From NCBI GenBank assembly GCA_024226555.1, contig JAAELO010000621.1, forward strand, positions 1 through 33,374: a DNA stretch of 33,374 nucleotides, read 5' to 3'. This document shows positions 1,918 to 7,623 of the stretch, piece by piece. The position numbers and the translations under genes were made by a program. Under the pieces are notes generated by a model. That model was not told the origin of the DNA, did not search any database, and saw only the letters and a program-made list of their open reading frames with translations. The stretch is from Desulfobacterales bacterium (lineage in GTDB: Bacteria > Desulfobacterota > Desulfobacteria > Desulfobacterales > JAAELO01). Within the stretch, counting starts at the first letter, position 1. Every line of letters starts with the position of its first letter.

Positions 1918-2568
1918 TTAAGTCTTAACCTTTTTTTCCCACTCTTCAATTACTGTATCTTCTTCAACCTCTTCCCAACCAGTTATCATGGCCCGGATAT
2001 GGCTAAAAATATTGTGACCTGTTGTTGTCATATATACATGAACAATTATAAAAGATAATATTCCAAAGGCCACAGCCATGTGTACAAAGACGACAACTTC
2101 AAGATTTAACCAGCCAATCCCCCAATCGTTCCATGAGTTATAACCCCAATATAGAAATCCGGAAAACATTTGTATTGGAAGTGCGACAACTGCAATGGAA
2201 AGATATACGAGTCTTTGGAGAGGATTGTGCTTTGCTTCTTTTCTCTTTTTTACAGGATGTTCCTCTCCTTTAAAAATTCCATATGAGTAGTAATATACAA
2301 CTTCTAACATTTTTTTGGTTGTTGGTATATATTGTTTCCATTCACCTGTTGTAAATATCCAGAATGCAAAGAATGCAAAGGATATCAGCCAGGTTAAACC
2401 AACATAGTTATGGACCTTTACAGCTATATGAAAACCAAAAAGAGTAAATAAACCATGGACTTCAAAACCTGATAAAAGTAGTGTGAAAATCAGAAACATC
2501 TGAAGCCAGTGCCAAAGCCTCTCAAATCTTGTAAATAGATAGATATTGATCATTTTTTTATCCGGCAT
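1918..2568 (-). CDS. Membrane cytochrome b (b561 / thiosulfate-reductase type)
   Basis: This 216-residue integral membrane cytochrome b should pass electrons between the quinone pool and the periplasmic octaheme cytochrome encoded just upstream. Four TM segments are visible (about 17-37, 52-72, 118-140, 155-180). Candidate heme-ligand histidines are His20 (in R-F-E-R-L-W-H-W), His53 (V-H-N-Y-V-G) and two in the last helix (F-V-H-M and I-V-H-V). This pattern belongs to the prokaryotic cytochrome b561 / Ni-hydrogenase b-type family (PF01292). The ATG overlaps the upstream stop by one base (TAATG), with GGAGG seven bases before it, which indicates translational coupling. The acidic, tryptophan-containing C-terminal tail is cytosolic. 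Whether the pair reduces or oxidises its sulfur substrate cannot be told from sequence. Confidence 0.88.
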   Translation of the reverse strand: MPDKKMINIYLFTRFERLWHWLQMFLIFTLLLSGFEVHGLFTLFGFHIAVKVHNYVGLTWLISFAFFAFWIFTTGEWKQYIPTTKKMLEVVYYYSYGIFKGEEHPVKKRKEAKHNPLQRLVYLSIAVVALPIQMFSGFLYWGYNSWNDWGIGWLNLEVVVFVHMAVAFGILSFIIVHVYMTTTGHNIFSHIRAMITGWEEVEEDTVIEEWEKKVKT

Positions 2569-4193
2569 TATTTATCCTCCTTTTTTCCATATCCGTTGCG
2601 ACGAGCAAAAACCCGACCAAGACCATGGAGGGAAATGCCAAGAAATGATACTGAAATCACAAACCAGCCTATCCAATCAAGAAAAACGAAACTATCTCTT
2701 GCTGGCATATAAACACCAGAAATACTCTTAAGTCTGCTTTCTTCACGAGTATGACACTCATTACAACTAACAACATTATTTTTTGGTGCAACCATGTGTG
2801 TTATCGGATACACATATGTGGATTTCACAAAATCAAACTTTCCGGAATAAGGTACATCAACTGCTTTCATACCCTTTGTAAGAGCTTTATCCCAATCAAG
2901 ATGATTCCAGTATCCGTCAGGACCTGATAGTAGAGGGGTCAAAAGGTTATTGTTTATTTTATCATAGGGCTGGGTTCCCCTGTGAACTTTAAAGGGATAG
3001 ATCCGTGAGTTTTTATCAGAAGCACTACCCACAGGATGACTCAGTTTTACAACTTTTGATGGATCTATTCTGTCCTTTGAGGTAAGACTTGATATGGAAC
3101 CGTTATACCAGAAGTATTCAGGTTTAACTTTTTTATCCCATCTCATTTTTCCCTTTATTGAGAGATAATTATGTTTGCCAAATTTTCCCTTTTCTTTATA
3201 CTTCTTACCATCTTTGAGTTTTCCTGATCTGGACCAGTCCCATGACATCTTAGTTGGATTTACTCTTGCAAAATCCGGAATATGACAACTCTGACATGCG
3301 ACCTTATCAGTATGATCATTTGCCTTTGAGTTCTCTTTATGGGGAGTCTTAGTATGGCAGGACTCACATGTGATTTTTGTTGTCAGGTCATCTTCAATCA
3401 GACTCTTACGGCTTTTTGCAGCAGGTTTGGTGTATACACGGCCAGCGATATTATGGAGAGTAGTTGTGTGACATCTTGTACAATTAAAGTTCTGTCCGTC
3501 TTTTCCCATGTGAACATCAAGGGACTTATTTGGATTTGTCAGGGATGAATCAAGATCCCCGTGCTTTACTCCATCACCACCACCACCATAAAAATGGCAT
3601 GAGCCGCAATTTTTTCTTGTTGGTCTCTTAATATCCTGAACAGCACTTTTTATATTTGTAAATATCTCATCAGCTATTTCCTTCTCTTCAGGATCATCTG
3701 ATTCTGAAAATACTCCATAATCTTCAAAGGATTCTTCCCAGTTTATATCTTTCTGGCTATGGCAAACAAGGCAGTTGGTTCCTTTTTTATTAGTGTTTCC
3801 CCAACCTGGGTGACAGGACATACAACCCTTGTCTTCCATTTTATTCGCAGATATACAGTAATTGTTCAGAGAATGACCAGCTTTCCCGACTAAACCACCG
3901 TTTTTTGTTTCACCACCTATCCATGTCCAGTGTATTGTTTTATGGAATTGTTTTTCAGCTTCTGAATGGCAGGAAAGACATGCTTTTGTAATTTCAGGTC
4001 CAGTTTTAAAGGGCTTGTTCAGAGCCTTAAATTTAGTGTGATCTGCTGTAGTCCACAACTTCATATCTTTAGTTGCCTGTTTGGCCATGGTTCGCCCGAG
4101 CGCCTTTTTCTCTTTACCTGGAGAAGTTGCCATCCCAATACCTGCAAACAGGAAAACTAAAATGATAATTAGTATTTGCGTTTTAAATTTCAT
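2568..4193 (-). CDS. Octaheme c-type cytochrome, tetrathionate reductase (OTR) family
   Basis: This is a periplasmic multiheme cytochrome with exactly eight CXXCH motifs: CLSCH (72-76), CMSCH, CLVCH, CGSCH, CTRCH, CESCH, CQSCH and CNECH near residue 480. An N-terminal signal sequence (about 5-22) and a C-terminal TM anchor (about 507-527, followed by R/K-rich residues) are visible. Heme count, length (541 aa), the CISANK segment just before the second heme motif, and an adjacent cytochrome b all match the octaheme tetrathionate reductase family known from Shewanella. Members reduce tetrathionate, nitrite or hydroxylamine in vitro, so the physiological substrate is open. It is coupled to cytochrome b downstream, and a composite MITE ends 36 nt before its ATG. 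Confidence 0.9.
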   Translation of the reverse strand: MKFKTQILIIILVFLFAGIGMATSPGKEKKALGRTMAKQATKDMKLWTTADHTKFKALNKPFKTGPEITKACLSCHSEAEKQFHKTIHWTWIGGETKNGGLVGKAGHSLNNYCISANKMEDKGCMSCHPGWGNTNKKGTNCLVCHSQKDINWEESFEDYGVFSESDDPEEKEIADEIFTNIKSAVQDIKRPTRKNCGSCHFYGGGGDGVKHGDLDSSLTNPNKSLDVHMGKDGQNFNCTRCHTTTLHNIAGRVYTKPAAKSRKSLIEDDLTTKITCESCHTKTPHKENSKANDHTDKVACQSCHIPDFARVNPTKMSWDWSRSGKLKDGKKYKEKGKFGKHNYLSIKGKMRWDKKVKPEYFWYNGSISSLTSKDRIDPSKVVKLSHPVGSASDKNSRIYPFKVHRGTQPYDKINNNLLTPLLSGPDGYWNHLDWDKALTKGMKAVDVPYSGKFDFVKSTYVYPITHMVAPKNNVVSCNECHTREESRLKSISGVYMPARDSFVFLDWIGWFVISVSFLGISLHGLGRVFARRNGYGKKEDK

Positions 4194-4468: not shown

Positions 4469-5575
4469 CTATTCAACTTTCTTCATTGAAAAAGAACCGT
4501 TTTTATTAAAAGTAAATTCTGCATCAACATAATATACTTTATTAAAAGATGGTCTTACATCTTTAACCATATAGTAAGATTCACCACTTCTTGCTCCGGT
4601 TCCACAGATGAATACAACCGGCCTGTTTAAAGGAAATAATTTGATTTTATCTTCAAGAACATCAACAGGGATGTTAACAGCAGTTTTTAGAGTCCCTCTG
4701 TCAAATTCATCCTTATCCCTTACATCAATAAGGTAAATGCTTGCAGGATTTTCATCCATGATCTTTCTGAAAGCTACCATGCTTATACTTCCCTCTTCTT
4801 TTCCTGCTTTTATGGCAACTTTTTTTGATCCTTTAGCAAACTTCTTCCATGCAGGATAACCAGCAGAGAAAACTTTAACATTAGTATATCCAAGAGCAAT
4901 TGCCTGGGCTGCAGATTTATGACTTAATTTACACTTAAAACCACCACAGTAGAAAACTAAAAGTTTACTCTTATCTTTAGGAAGTTTTTTAGTCATTTTT
5001 TTAAATTTAGTGTTGGGAATACTTATGGCTGTCAGGATATGACCTTTATCATACTTTTTTCTTTTAGGTCTTGAATCAATGATTGTCATATCTTTTTTAG
5101 CATCAAGATTCTTTTTAATCCACTCAACAGGAACCTGAGCATATTTACCTTTTGTTTTAACCCATGCAGGAAAACCTTTTGCATAAACCTTAACATTAGT
5201 ATATCCAAGTTTTTCTGCTTTATAAGCTGATTTATGACTTAGTGAGCATTTTAAGCCTTCGCAATAATAGATCAGTAAAGCATTTTTGTTCTTTGGAAGA
5301 AAACGGGCCATTTTTTTAAATTTTGAGTGGGGGATGTTTATCGCCATTGGAATATGACCTTTGTCATATTTTTTTCTTTTAGGTCTGGCATCAATGATCA
5401 TAACATCTTTTGCCATTGGAACTGTAATGTGCTTTGCTACAAAATCAGCATCAACAATATTGGTATATTGCTTAAAACTTTTGCTGCTTTTTGCACTAGT
5501 ATCTTTAGTTGCACAACCCACCGCAATTAACAATGATATGGCGATACTAATAATAGCTATATTTCTTAGTTTCAC
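4469..5575 (-). CDS. Triple-rhodanese-domain lipoprotein
   Basis: This envelope lipoprotein has three rhodanese (sulfurtransferase) domains. The signal peptide ends in the lipobox I-A-V-G-C, with the lipidated Cys at 21. Domains 1 (about 37-140) and 2 (about 147-245) are near-duplicates sharing PKRKKYDKGHI and the active loop Y-C-x-G-x-K-C (C105/C110 and C210/C215). Domain 3 (about 262-365) has the standard C-G-T-G-A-R-S loop with Cys324. All three keep a candidate persulfide cysteine, and domains 1 and 2 add a second cysteine five residues on, which could form a disulfide. An extracytoplasmic rhodanese beside an octaheme tetrathionate-type cytochrome suggests handling of sulfane sulfur from polysulfide, thiosulfate or tetrathionate. 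Its stop is 275 bp from the cytochrome ATG; the upstream gene lies 47 nt away. Confidence 0.87.
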   Translation of the reverse strand: MKLRNIAIISIAISLLIAVGCATKDTSAKSSKSFKQYTNIVDADFVAKHITVPMAKDVMIIDARPKRKKYDKGHIPMAINIPHSKFKKMARFLPKNKNALLIYYCEGLKCSLSHKSAYKAEKLGYTNVKVYAKGFPAWVKTKGKYAQVPVEWIKKNLDAKKDMTIIDSRPKRKKYDKGHILTAISIPNTKFKKMTKKLPKDKSKLLVFYCGGFKCKLSHKSAAQAIALGYTNVKVFSAGYPAWKKFAKGSKKVAIKAGKEEGSISMVAFRKIMDENPASIYLIDVRDKDEFDRGTLKTAVNIPVDVLEDKIKLFPLNRPVVFICGTGARSGESYYMVKDVRPSFNKVYYVDAEFTFNKNGSFSMKKVE

Positions 5576-5622: not shown

Positions 5623-5964
5623 TTATTTACATTTTGCCGGAGTCGGTGAATCCGATGCATAGTTATATAAATAAGTATAGATGTCGGTGAGTTTTTTATC
5701 TGACAATTTCCCCCACTCCTCACCGCATTTAAACTTTGAAAAATCTTTGGTTTCAAAAACTTTTGTCCAGCCTGTCTGTGTATGACTGTCAGGATTAAGT
5801 ATTGGTTTTTTAGAATCAACAGCACCTCGTTTATAGCACTTTGAATATACTTTCCTGTAAAGATACTTACCTTTTCTCTTATTTCCCATCTCAAGACCAA
5901 ATACGACACTTGTGGATGCAAACATAAAGAAAAATGTTGCAAGGGCTAAAACTATTTTTTTCAT
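5623..5964 (-). CDS. Exported cytochrome c-like protein lacking the heme motif
   Basis: This 113-residue protein has a signal peptide (about 1-23) and then the architecture of a small monoheme cytochrome c: G-K-Y-L-Y-R-K before the expected heme site and a C-terminal helix, L-T-D-I-Y-T-Y-L-Y-N-Y-A-S-D-S-P. Where CXXCH should be, the sequence reads Y-S-K-C-Y (40-44): the first Cys and the axial His are both Tyr, and only the second Cys remains. Other cysteines are Cys80 and Cys112. The reading frame is intact. Covalent heme attachment in the normal way looks impossible, so it may be a binding or scaffold protein, a thiol carrier, or a subunit that lost heme. It is first in the leftward module, about 100 nt from the sigma-54 promoter. 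The cytochrome-fold assignment is from pattern memory. Confidence 0.75.
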   Translation of the reverse strand: MKKIVLALATFFFMFASTSVVFGLEMGNKRKGKYLYRKVYSKCYKRGAVDSKKPILNPDSHTQTGWTKVFETKDFSKFKCGEEWGKLSDKKLTDIYTYLYNYASDSPTPAKCK

Positions 5965-6078: not shown

Positions 6079-6094
6079 AGCAACAGATATGCCA
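6079..6094 (-). promoter_or_regulatory. Sigma-54 (-24/-12) promoter of the cytochrome module
   Basis: The minus strand reads TGGCATATCTGTTGCT. It has TGGCA at -24, TTGCT at -12, and the required GG-to-GC spacing (GG at positions 2-3, GC at 14-15). Transcription would start near 6068 and run left into the cytochrome c-like gene at 5964. A sigma-54 activator gene with its own upstream palindrome lies just to the right, which strongly supports the call. Confidence 0.82.
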
Positions 6095-6189: not shown

Positions 6190-6224
6190 GTTAACCTGTT
6201 AACTATAACAGTTAACAGGTTAAC
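6190..6224. promoter_or_regulatory. Perfect palindrome, probable activator binding site
   Basis: Arms GTTAACCTGTTAAC (6190-6203) and GTTAACAGGTTAAC (6211-6224) are perfect reverse complements around TATAACA. The centre (6207) is about 140 bp upstream of the predicted sigma-54 start and about 45 bp upstream of the activator's own ATG. That is the usual place for an enhancer (UAS) bound by a Fis-type HTH dimer, and it would allow autoregulation. Further TTAA-containing half-sites lie on both sides (6184-6189 and 6231-6249). Confidence 0.72.
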
Positions 6225-6252
6225 TCTTTGAATTAACAGTTTGAGGTTAAAA

Positions 6253-7623
6253 ATGGACATTGGTAAATACTGGAAAACTTTGGTTGATACCCTCCAGGAC
6301 GGTATTATGGTCGTAGACCCAAATGGTAATATACTTACAGCAAATAAATCTGCTGAAAGAATTACAGGATACACAATTGACGAGCTTCTTGGAAAATCAT
6401 GCAAAATACTCAACTGCACAGGCTGTAAAATAATAAACAAACCACAAAGTAGTGACTGGTGCGAATTGTTTAAAAGGACAAATATAAACAATAAAAAATG
6501 TATGATAACAAGCAAGGAAGGTAGAGCTGTTCATATCTTAAAAAGTGCTAAAGTTTTAAGAGATGAAAATGATGATATTATTGGTGCTGTGGAAACTCTA
6601 ACAGATATAACGGAATCTATTCGTCAGCAACAGGAGATAAATTCACTTAAACAAACCTTCCTTGATGAGGGATATCACGGCATAATCGGAAAATCCAATG
6701 TCATTAAAAACCTTTTTGAGATGATAGAAAATGTTGCTCAATCAGACACACCCGTCATGATACATGGTAAAAGCGGAACAGGAAAAGAGCTTATTGCAAG
6801 AGCAATTCACAGAGCCAGTAACAGAAGTGAAAAGCCTTTTATAAAGGTCAATTGCGCAGCTCTTAATATAAATTTATTAGAGAGCGAACTTTTTGGTCAT
6901 GTTAGAGGGGCTTATACCGGAGCTGACAAGAACAGAGCAGGAAGATTCGAAGCAGCGCATGAAGGAACAATTCTTCTTGATGAGATCGGTGATATTCCAT
7001 TATCAATACAGGTAAAACTGCTTCGGGTTCTTGAAGAGAAAAAGATTGAAAGAGTAGGTGAAAATAAATCCATATCAATTGATGTTAGAATAATTACAGC
7101 AACCAATAAAAACCTTGATGACCTTGTAGAAAAAGAGGAGTTTAGGGAAGATCTGTATTTCAGGATTAATGTATTCCCTTTATACAGCCCCTCTCTTTCT
7201 GAAAGAAGTGAAGATATACCATTAATTGCGCAAAATTATATTGATATTAATGCAGAGAGAACCGGTCGAAATGTTAATGGGCTTACGCCCTCTTCCCTTG
7301 AAAAACTTATTCAATATCCCTGGCCTGGAAACGTTCGGGAACTTCGTAATGCTATTGAATACGCATTTGTTCTCTGCACTGAAGGCCACATTGAGACTAT
7401 TCATCTTCCACCAAAAATAGTAAATCATAAGGAAAATGAAAATATTTATAGAAAATCAAAACAAACAACAAAAGGCTCAGATGGGAAGGAACAATTGATT
7501 GAAGTCTTAAAAAGAACAGGTGGAAATCAATCAGAGGCTGCAAGACAAATAGGTGTTAGCAGAATTACAGTATGGAAACGTATTAAAAAATATGGAATTG
7601 ATTTAAAAAGAGATATTACTTAA
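6253..7623 (+). CDS. Sigma-54-dependent activator with cysteine-rich PAS sensor
   Basis: This enhancer-binding protein probably switches on the divergent cytochrome/rhodanese module. Domains in order: PAS (about 5-122); AAA+ (about 145-370) with Walker A G-K-S-G-T-G-K-E (172 on), the sigma-54 contact loop G-A-Y-T-G-A (219-224, Tyr in place of the common Phe) and Walker B G-T-I-L-L-D-E; and a Fis-type HTH (about 415-455). The PAS domain holds five cysteines (50, 55, 58, 70, 83) in C-x4-C-x2-C-x11-C-x12-C order, suggesting redox, metal or sulfur sensing. There is no receiver domain, so control is by ligand or redox. The ATG at 6253 follows GAGGT with six-base spacing; a TTG at 6241 is in frame but overlaps that site. 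Confidence 0.9.
   Translation: MDIGKYWKTLVDTLQDGIMVVDPNGNILTANKSAERITGYTIDELLGKSCKILNCTGCKIINKPQSSDWCELFKRTNINNKKCMITSKEGRAVHILKSAKVLRDENDDIIGAVETLTDITESIRQQQEINSLKQTFLDEGYHGIIGKSNVIKNLFEMIENVAQSDTPVMIHGKSGTGKELIARAIHRASNRSEKPFIKVNCAALNINLLESELFGHVRGAYTGADKNRAGRFEAAHEGTILLDEIGDIPLSIQVKLLRVLEEKKIERVGENKSISIDVRIITATNKNLDDLVEKEEFREDLYFRINVFPLYSPSLSERSEDIPLIAQNYIDINAERTGRNVNGLTPSSLEKLIQYPWPGNVRELRNAIEYAFVLCTEGHIETIHLPPKIVNHKENENIYRKSKQTTKGSDGKEQLIEVLKRTGGNQSEAARQIGVSRITVWKRIKKYGIDLKRDIT

Follow-up and report, generated by a model that had tools for sequence, protein, structure and literature searches.

Published accounts of several systems, drawn on here for the passages that concern them, bear on the locus described below. 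DsrC of Allochromatium undergoes persulfuration at its penultimate cysteine only (PMC3397948), and TsdA works through a cysteine S-thiosulfonate on its ligand cysteine as an intermediate (PMC4423706, beside which PMC9562282 is cited for the cysteine ligation and intermediate). An octaheme cytochrome of the tetrathionate reductase family (OTR) with a cytochrome b gene nearby has been described in Thermosulfurimonas (PMC4911364). The YTD cluster of sulfur disproportionators comprises YedE, TusA, DsrE and two hypothetical proteins (PMC8780430, PMC9751629, PMC8528874); two of these papers treat its genes as marking sulfur disproportionation (PMC8780430, PMC9751629), and the first step of elemental sulfur disproportionation has been called unknown (PMC8780430). 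DUF3373 is among the putative outer-membrane pore families (PMC4827864), and Sec forms of OTR and of the TsoB rhodanese have already been listed (PMC13188914). The OTR and YTD passages of PMC4911364, PMC8780430, PMC9751629 and PMC8528874 make no mention of a heme-less protein like the one analysed here, and no description of it stands in the titles and abstract openings listed by open-access searches aimed at this protein, its operon or heme-less cytochromes.

The window, that is, the whole stretch of DNA analysed, covers 33,374 nucleotides of contig JAAELO010000621.1 from a Desulfobacterales bacterium. On its minus strand the gene of the heme-less protein comes first and is followed by the rhodanese gene, the OTR gene and a cytochrome b-like gene. 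The operon and its upstream region comprise the following features:

1918..2568, minus strand: cytochrome b-like membrane subunit gene, which overlaps the stop of OTR (naming by sequence and location; relatives keep it behind OTR)
2568..4193, minus strand: octaheme cytochrome of the tetrathionate reductase family (OTR) with eight CXXCH motifs (TIGR04315 and 1sp3 matches)
4469..5575, minus strand: triple rhodanese with a lipobox-like N-terminus, judged by eye, and three PF00581 stretches (open reading frame, Pfam)
5623..5964, minus strand: gene of the heme-less cytochrome c-family protein, 113 amino acids plus stop (open reading frame, homologues, low dN/dS)
6079..6094, minus strand: sigma-54-type -24/-12 site TGGCATATCTGTTGCT, upstream of the operon (its score reached by 0 of 2000 mononucleotide shuffles)
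6190..6224, no strand assigned: perfect 15-nt inverted repeat GTTAACCTGTTAACT/AGTTAACAGGTTAAC between promoter and activator gene (read from the sequence)
6241..7623, plus strand: divergent regulator gene with PAS, sigma-54 activator and Fis-type HTH parts (open reading frame, Pfam)

The OTR protein scored 525.8 bits against TIGR04315 (cut-off 375) and matched 1sp3 in phmmer with an E value of 1.9e-101. Aligned to 1sp3, it retains NNxC and VKHGD, whose residues in that structure we take to be the active-site Cys and Lys of OTR. The pair formed with the cytochrome b-like gene resembles that of Thermosulfurimonas. The 450 bases beyond the activator start were scanned in 52 relatives carrying an activator homologue on the opposite strand. 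A sigma-54-type site scoring at least 12.3, a value reached by at most 3 of 100 shuffles, was present in 45 of them; five had only sites scoring 9 to 10.8 (reached by 15 to 55 of 100 shuffles) and two had none. The inverted repeat is a likely, predicted binding site of the activator.

The 113-codon frame runs from an ATG at 5964 to 5623 on the minus strand with no interruption. The N-terminus of the protein is a hydrophobic, export-type leader, from which we infer that the protein is exported. After the leader it reads GNKRKGKYLYRKVYSKCYKRG... and, at the place of CXXCH, Y40-S41-K42-C43-Y44. Its cysteines are Cys43, Cys80 and Cys112:

5626..5658, minus strand: C-terminal tail ASDSPTPAKCK-COOH with penultimate Cys112, codon 5629-5631 (row counts)
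5725..5727, minus strand: Cys80, falling on or directly beside the position of the axial Met in class I cytochromes c (row counts, profile alignment to cytochrome cc subunits)
5833..5847, minus strand: former CXXCH, now Y40-S-K-C43-Y44, with the Cys43 codon at 5836-5838 (sequence, counts over 82 rows)

The window protein itself matches no sequence in Pfam, NCBIfam or the PDB, and thus its link to cytochromes comes via its relatives. A PDB search with the heme-less profile produced nothing useful either; the PDB searches with protein and profile gave chance-level matches to ribosomal proteins.

A homologue was present in 42 of 96 genomes (the window's own and others of the same order), so the heme-less motif is more than a chance occurrence. 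Across the phylum, 47 of 395 sampled genomes had a family match. A scan of named genomes, taking the best 80 of 193 loci and leaning towards near, heme-less relatives, gave loci labelled mostly Desulfobacterales or other Deltaproteobacteria. In a first alignment of 30 sequences including the window's, 26 lacked CXXCH and four had it, Cys43, Cys80 and Cys112 being present in all 30. The larger set held 113 distinct rows, 82 without and 31 with CXXCH. Left out of the tree and the residue counts were L101 (which holds an X), L172 (a two-piece match of 44 and 73 bits), L173, L174 and L176-L179 (CXXCH proteins, 32 to 43 bits) and L175 (broken frame). Among the 27 heme-less genomes of the 96, only G013 had a second family match, the distant CXXCH protein L174 (E 2.4e-4).

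The heme-less and CXXCH profiles aligned in hhalign over 108 columns with 41% identity and an E value of 3.5e-52. All seven CXXCH members scanned passed the cut-off of the cytochrome c model PF13442 (Cytochrome_CBB3); two of five heme-less members scanned matched nearly the whole profile below the cut-off (18.8 and 22.8 versus 27 bits). In a tree built without the motif columns, the 82 heme-less rows were separated from the 31 CXXCH rows by one branch (support 99/97), a split found in 100% of 200 bootstrap trees; the same branch was recovered with the motif columns included (support 100/99). The tree has few columns for its number of rows, its bootstrap was unsettled, two long CXXCH branches (L155, L158) meet in it, and its root is the midpoint. 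Since the heme-less rows form one side of one branch, a single loss is the simplest account, and since the CXXCH members pass PF13442 the direction is read as loss and not gain. Descent of the window protein from a class I cytochrome c is, by these comparisons, near certain, in agreement with the monoheme ancestry claimed in the earlier note. The homology to CXXCH members extends over the whole length, whereas the first heme cysteine and the axial histidine of class I cytochromes c are gone and the window protein has no Pfam score. The heme site was most simply lost once, in the line leading to many Desulfobacterales.

Substitution ratios were obtained for 10 of 11 close pairs (L107/L130 gave no value, its fixed-length cut being misaligned). 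In eight pairs dN/dS lay between 0.03 and 0.13, the ratios being rough in the four of these with dS above 1; the remaining two gave 0.29 and 0.41, both at low dS. As judged from these ratios, the heme-less gene has evidently stayed under purifying selection in its operon. Thus the description given in the earlier note held on each of its factual points: Y-S-K-C-Y stands in place of CXXCH, the frame is intact and the gene is not a dead one, given its 82 distinct heme-less homologues and low dN/dS, and a sigma-54 promoter, an octaheme cytochrome and a triple rhodanese surround it.

The residues of the heme site have fared very differently within the heme-less clade. The complete CXXCH motif is absent from the window protein and from all 82 heme-less rows, none of which has the first heme cysteine; its place (position 40) is taken by Tyr in 76. 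Position 43 is Cys in 81 of 82. Position 44, the former axial histidine, is spread over nine residues and is His in only 17. Counted as fewest changes, position 44 altered 29 times, position 40 five times, Cys43 once, and Cys80 and Cys112, both present in 82/82 rows, not at all. Conservation of the three cysteines, proposed as a check in the earlier note, is therefore 81, 82 and 82 of 82 rows. Arg46, Gly47 and Pro54 are among the residues better conserved in heme-less than in CXXCH rows. The sole loss of Cys43, to Ala, is in L138, a metagenome-assembled genome (MAG) labelled Planctomycetota, where OTR and cytochrome b genes adjoin. Searched against 119 genomes around and including its own, the L138 protein matched in its own genome only; the window rhodanese found no match in that genome, an empty result which, coming from one genome, shows little.

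The equivalent of Cys112 is present in all 113 core rows, heme and heme-less, and the last cysteine is penultimate in 112 (82/82 heme-less and 30/31 CXXCH; the counts of C-terminal endings include L101 and omit the window copy L001, a one-row difference from the 82 heme-less rows used for the tree). Of these rows, 79 of 82 heme-less and 24 of 31 CXXCH end exactly in P-x-P-x-x-C-x. Among 1460 neighbour genes, mechanically called open reading frames of at least 80 amino acids in the relatives' loci and the window, many of them redundant, this ending does not occur, and a penultimate cysteine of any kind occurs in 22. The ends of L173, L174, L176 and one L175 piece, rows left out of the counts, have no penultimate cysteine. 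Because five CXXCH rows without Cys80 retain theirs, the penultimate cysteine is not there only to pair with Cys80. The DsrC of the window's own genome ends in PKPTGCV, and the family thus shares with DsrC/TusE a penultimate cysteine on a C-terminal P-x-P-x-x-C-x tail. Unlike DsrC, which is cytoplasmic, the window protein has an export-type leader; it has no match to PF04358 and no sequence kinship with DsrC, so the likeness is one of analogy.

No Met is conserved among 17 aligned CXXCH rows. When the profile is aligned to cytochrome cc subunits of solved structure, the conserved cysteine matches, wherever no gap is printed at the place, the residue after a Met which is presumably the axial heme ligand of those subunits. 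The five CXXCH rows without Cys80 have a His in the Cys80 loop. By its position alone, the residue suggests His/Cys heme ligation in the ancestor, with Cys80 possibly the ancestral axial ligand. Such ligation, for which a cysteine lies on or adjoins the axial-Met position while no Met is conserved, would be a likeness to TsdA and SoxA; the core family members differ from these in having one CXXCH or none. The alignment of Cys80 at or next to the axial-Met position, and the penultimate place of the last cysteine in a mostly DsrC-like ending, are the new observations.

An AF2 model of the window protein (pLDDT 86.8, pTM 0.72) shows, besides the leader helix, helices at 29-46, 63-72, 81-85 and 89-101. 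The best structural rows are mostly cytochromes c but the matches are weak: Foldseek gave an E value of 1.2, and VIA a Z score of 5.6 over 63 residues at 3.0 A, which falls in a range possibly reflecting only a common arrangement. The comparison of predicted folds that the earlier note called for leans weakly towards cytochromes c; this model-based search is by itself no proof of a cytochrome fold.

Within the same operon, forms with and without heme are available for comparison. The CXXCH gene of locus L141 lies in the order activator (minus strand), DUF3373, YedE, TusA, CHP, DsrE-like, the gene itself, OTR and cytochrome b; L068, L086, L097 and L129 have the same order with a heme-less gene. 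L140 (CXXCH) is like L141 without YedE and TusA. In L162 the CXXCH gene follows DUF3373, CHP and DsrE-like genes and precedes a rhodanese gene, OTR and cytochrome b lying farther upstream. CXXCH orthologues in the same operon position, the search for which had been suggested beforehand, are therefore found in full in L140 and L141 and in part in L162. With one representative of each scanned, YedE passed PF04143, TusA PF01206 and DUF3373 PF11853; the DsrE-like protein fell below the PF02635 cut-off (18.8 versus 22.7 bits) and CHP had no match. Loci L068, L071, L084, L086, L092, L097, L101 and L129 have genes of the YedE, TusA and DsrE types next to the heme-less gene, a likeness to the YTD cluster. 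The window operon differs from that cluster: queries with YedE, TusA, one CHP and the DsrE-like protein found no such genes around the window gene, and the relatives' DsrE-like gene, as noted, is below cut-off.

The two forms keep different company. Among loci with at least 5.5 kb downstream (L172-L179 left out, L101 included), OTR follows 45 of 54 heme-less versus 4 of 23 CXXCH genes (Fisher 6e-8, kinship ignored), and a PhsA-type Mo enzyme follows none of the 54 versus 14 of the 23 (Fisher 1e-9, kinship likewise ignored). At the level of genomes, where tables were tallied from the per-genome matches to family, OTR and rhodanese among the 96, an OTR-family match (E 0.001) is present in all 27 heme-less genomes versus 29 of the 54 without the family (Fisher 5e-6, again ignoring kinship). 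For heme-less loci with no OTR close by, a TIGR04315 match was found somewhere in each of five genomes checked (those of L138, L108, L107, L097, L126), two of which, L138 and L097, do have OTR beside the gene.

The triple rhodanese of the window type was found in 23 of the 96 genomes at E 1e-20, 22 of them among the 42 with a family member and one among the 54 without (Fisher 3e-9, kinship not taken into account). The 22 comprise 15 heme-less and seven CXXCH genomes, two of the latter seven matches being weak (33-34% identity); 12 of the 27 heme-less genomes lack the rhodanese at this threshold. An in-frame TGA occurs at the position of window rhodanese Cys110 and/or Cys215 in 17 searched loci, 11 of them heme-less (L060, L066, L067, L070, L077, L078, L083, L098, L102, L104, L105, L142, L161, L162, L166, L169, L170), which suggests Cys/Sec interchange in the active loops of the triple rhodanese. 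The second OTR beside the first in L110 (14517-16154) likewise has a TGA at the position of window OTR Cys113, equivalent to Cys64 of 1sp3. Such interchange in rhodanese homologues and OTR paralogues is shared with the TsoB-type selenoprotein rhodaneses and Sec-OTR, whereas the window rhodanese and OTR themselves have Cys, and the window rhodanese, at 118 of 805 bits, falls well short of the TsoB cut-off. At Cys43, Cys80 and Cys112, no Sec was seen in the family matches read through.

We postulate, at somewhat less than even confidence, that the window protein works in the periplasm as a thiol/persulfide carrier built on a cytochrome c scaffold without heme. Such a protein would carry sulfane sulfur or a thiosulfonate. 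The triple rhodanese, probably a lipoprotein, would load sulfur onto the Cys112 tail, as happens in DsrC at the penultimate cysteine, with Cys80 and Cys43, the old thioether cysteine, serving inside the emptied heme cleft as relay thiols or resolving thiols. The electrons exchanged when an S-S bond forms or breaks would be taken or given by OTR with cytochrome b, and sulfur would be moved inward by YedE/TusA/DsrE-like proteins wherever these occur. CXXCH relatives may act likewise, with a His/Cys-ligated heme beside the thiol arm. The earlier note had proposed a sulfur carrier relying on the cysteine left at the heme site; the proposal fits the neighbourhood and the retained thiols, and needs refining in that Cys112 is at least as good a candidate for the carrier residue as Cys43, which was lost once (L138). 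Retention of the cysteines, the OTR context, co-occurrence and Cys/TGA interchange of the rhodanese, the PKPTGCV ending of DsrC and the reported persulfuration of DsrC (PMC3397948) together bring this reading close to an even chance. Against it, a structural disulfide may be all that Cys80 and Cys112 form, L138 has Ala for Cys43 and still has its OTR and cytochrome b genes, the triple rhodanese is missing from 12 of 27 heme-less genomes at E 1e-20, the window operon lacks YedE/TusA/DsrE, the three cysteines show no Sec in the matches read through, and the match to the cytochrome c fold is weak.

The main rival is that the protein is a structural relic, a heme-less scaffold or adaptor subunit of an OTR/cytochrome b/DUF3373 assembly, in which a Cys80-Cys112 disulfide would pin the tail and Cys43 would be kept for packing or for an intermolecular disulfide. 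We consider this possible, if rather less than probable. The close linkage to OTR and cytochrome b, the linkage to DUF3373 even without OTR near (L108, L125, L134, L139, L181), the joint presence of Cys80 and Cys112 in 82/82 heme-less rows and the loss of Cys43 in L138 next to persisting OTR and cytochrome b genes are all as expected of a scaffold. The disulfide is harder to reconcile with the five CXXCH homologues that have the penultimate cysteine but not Cys80. Moreover, Cys43 is near-invariant beside a freely changing neighbour, more than packing usually demands, and the rhodanese co-occurs near-exclusively with the family.

Three nearly invariant cysteines might also bind a metal (Cu or Zn), but this seems unlikely: the identified neighbour families belong to sulfur and electron transfer, none to metal handling, Cys43 is lost in L138, and Cys112 is kept in CXXCH members of which five lack Cys80. 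Heme might still be bound, either through a single thioether link to Cys43 or without covalent attachment, Cys80 then being the ligand, as the His44 of 17 rows and the retention of Cys80 would allow; we judge this very unlikely, with His44 missing from 65 of 82 rows, the first cysteine from all, and at least 29 changes at position 44, unexpected for a heme ligand. That the gene is decaying and without function, as loss of the defining CXXCH motif might imply, has hardly any probability left in the face of 82 distinct heme-less homologues that a single branch sets apart, dN/dS of 0.03-0.13 in eight of 10 close pairs, and a conserved promoter and operon; the same homologues and ratios rule out a dead gene, a sequencing error or a contig artefact.

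Returning to the carrier reading, its fullest form remains doubtful as a whole. In it, a class I cytochrome c with a His/Cys heme and a DsrC-like penultimate-Cys arm, the tail having arisen by convergence, would have lost its heme once to become a periplasmic sulfur carrier, the old heme-binding cysteines becoming thiols that line the empty cleft; it would be loaded by the Cys/Sec triple rhodanese and read by the octaheme cytochrome. It is in itself unusual for a cytochrome c to lose its heme site while the gene is retained for long. Were the carrier reading right, schemes for how sulfate reducers and disproportionators turn over thiosulfate, tetrathionate and sulfur would gain a sulfur carrier located in the periplasm, and the case would show how a redox scaffold can switch from electrons to thiol chemistry.

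A few further observations concern individual loci. A Sec reading of G047/L175, which contains one TGA (at residue 76) and one TAA, was rejected as this looks like a broken frame. The L150 rhodanese homologue has a TAG at a non-cysteine residue. The window's genome contains selA, and a single TGA is present in many of the order's OTR paralogues. The protein of L117, from a MAG labelled Lentisphaeria, is almost identical to that of L113, a Desulfobacteraceae MAG (tree distance about 0.015), reflecting either a mislabelled contig or a recent transfer. In the Desulfotignum loci L108, L125, L133, L134, L135 and L139, the heme-less gene stands directly before the DUF3373 gene, which looks broken in L139, and no OTR was found in the stretch examined. 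In L142, L145, L147, L167 and L169, OTR follows an HmcC/NrfD-like membrane domain to which it is fused (L142: about 1090 residues), and these clusters also hold HmcB-/PhsA-like genes and a CXXCH relative.
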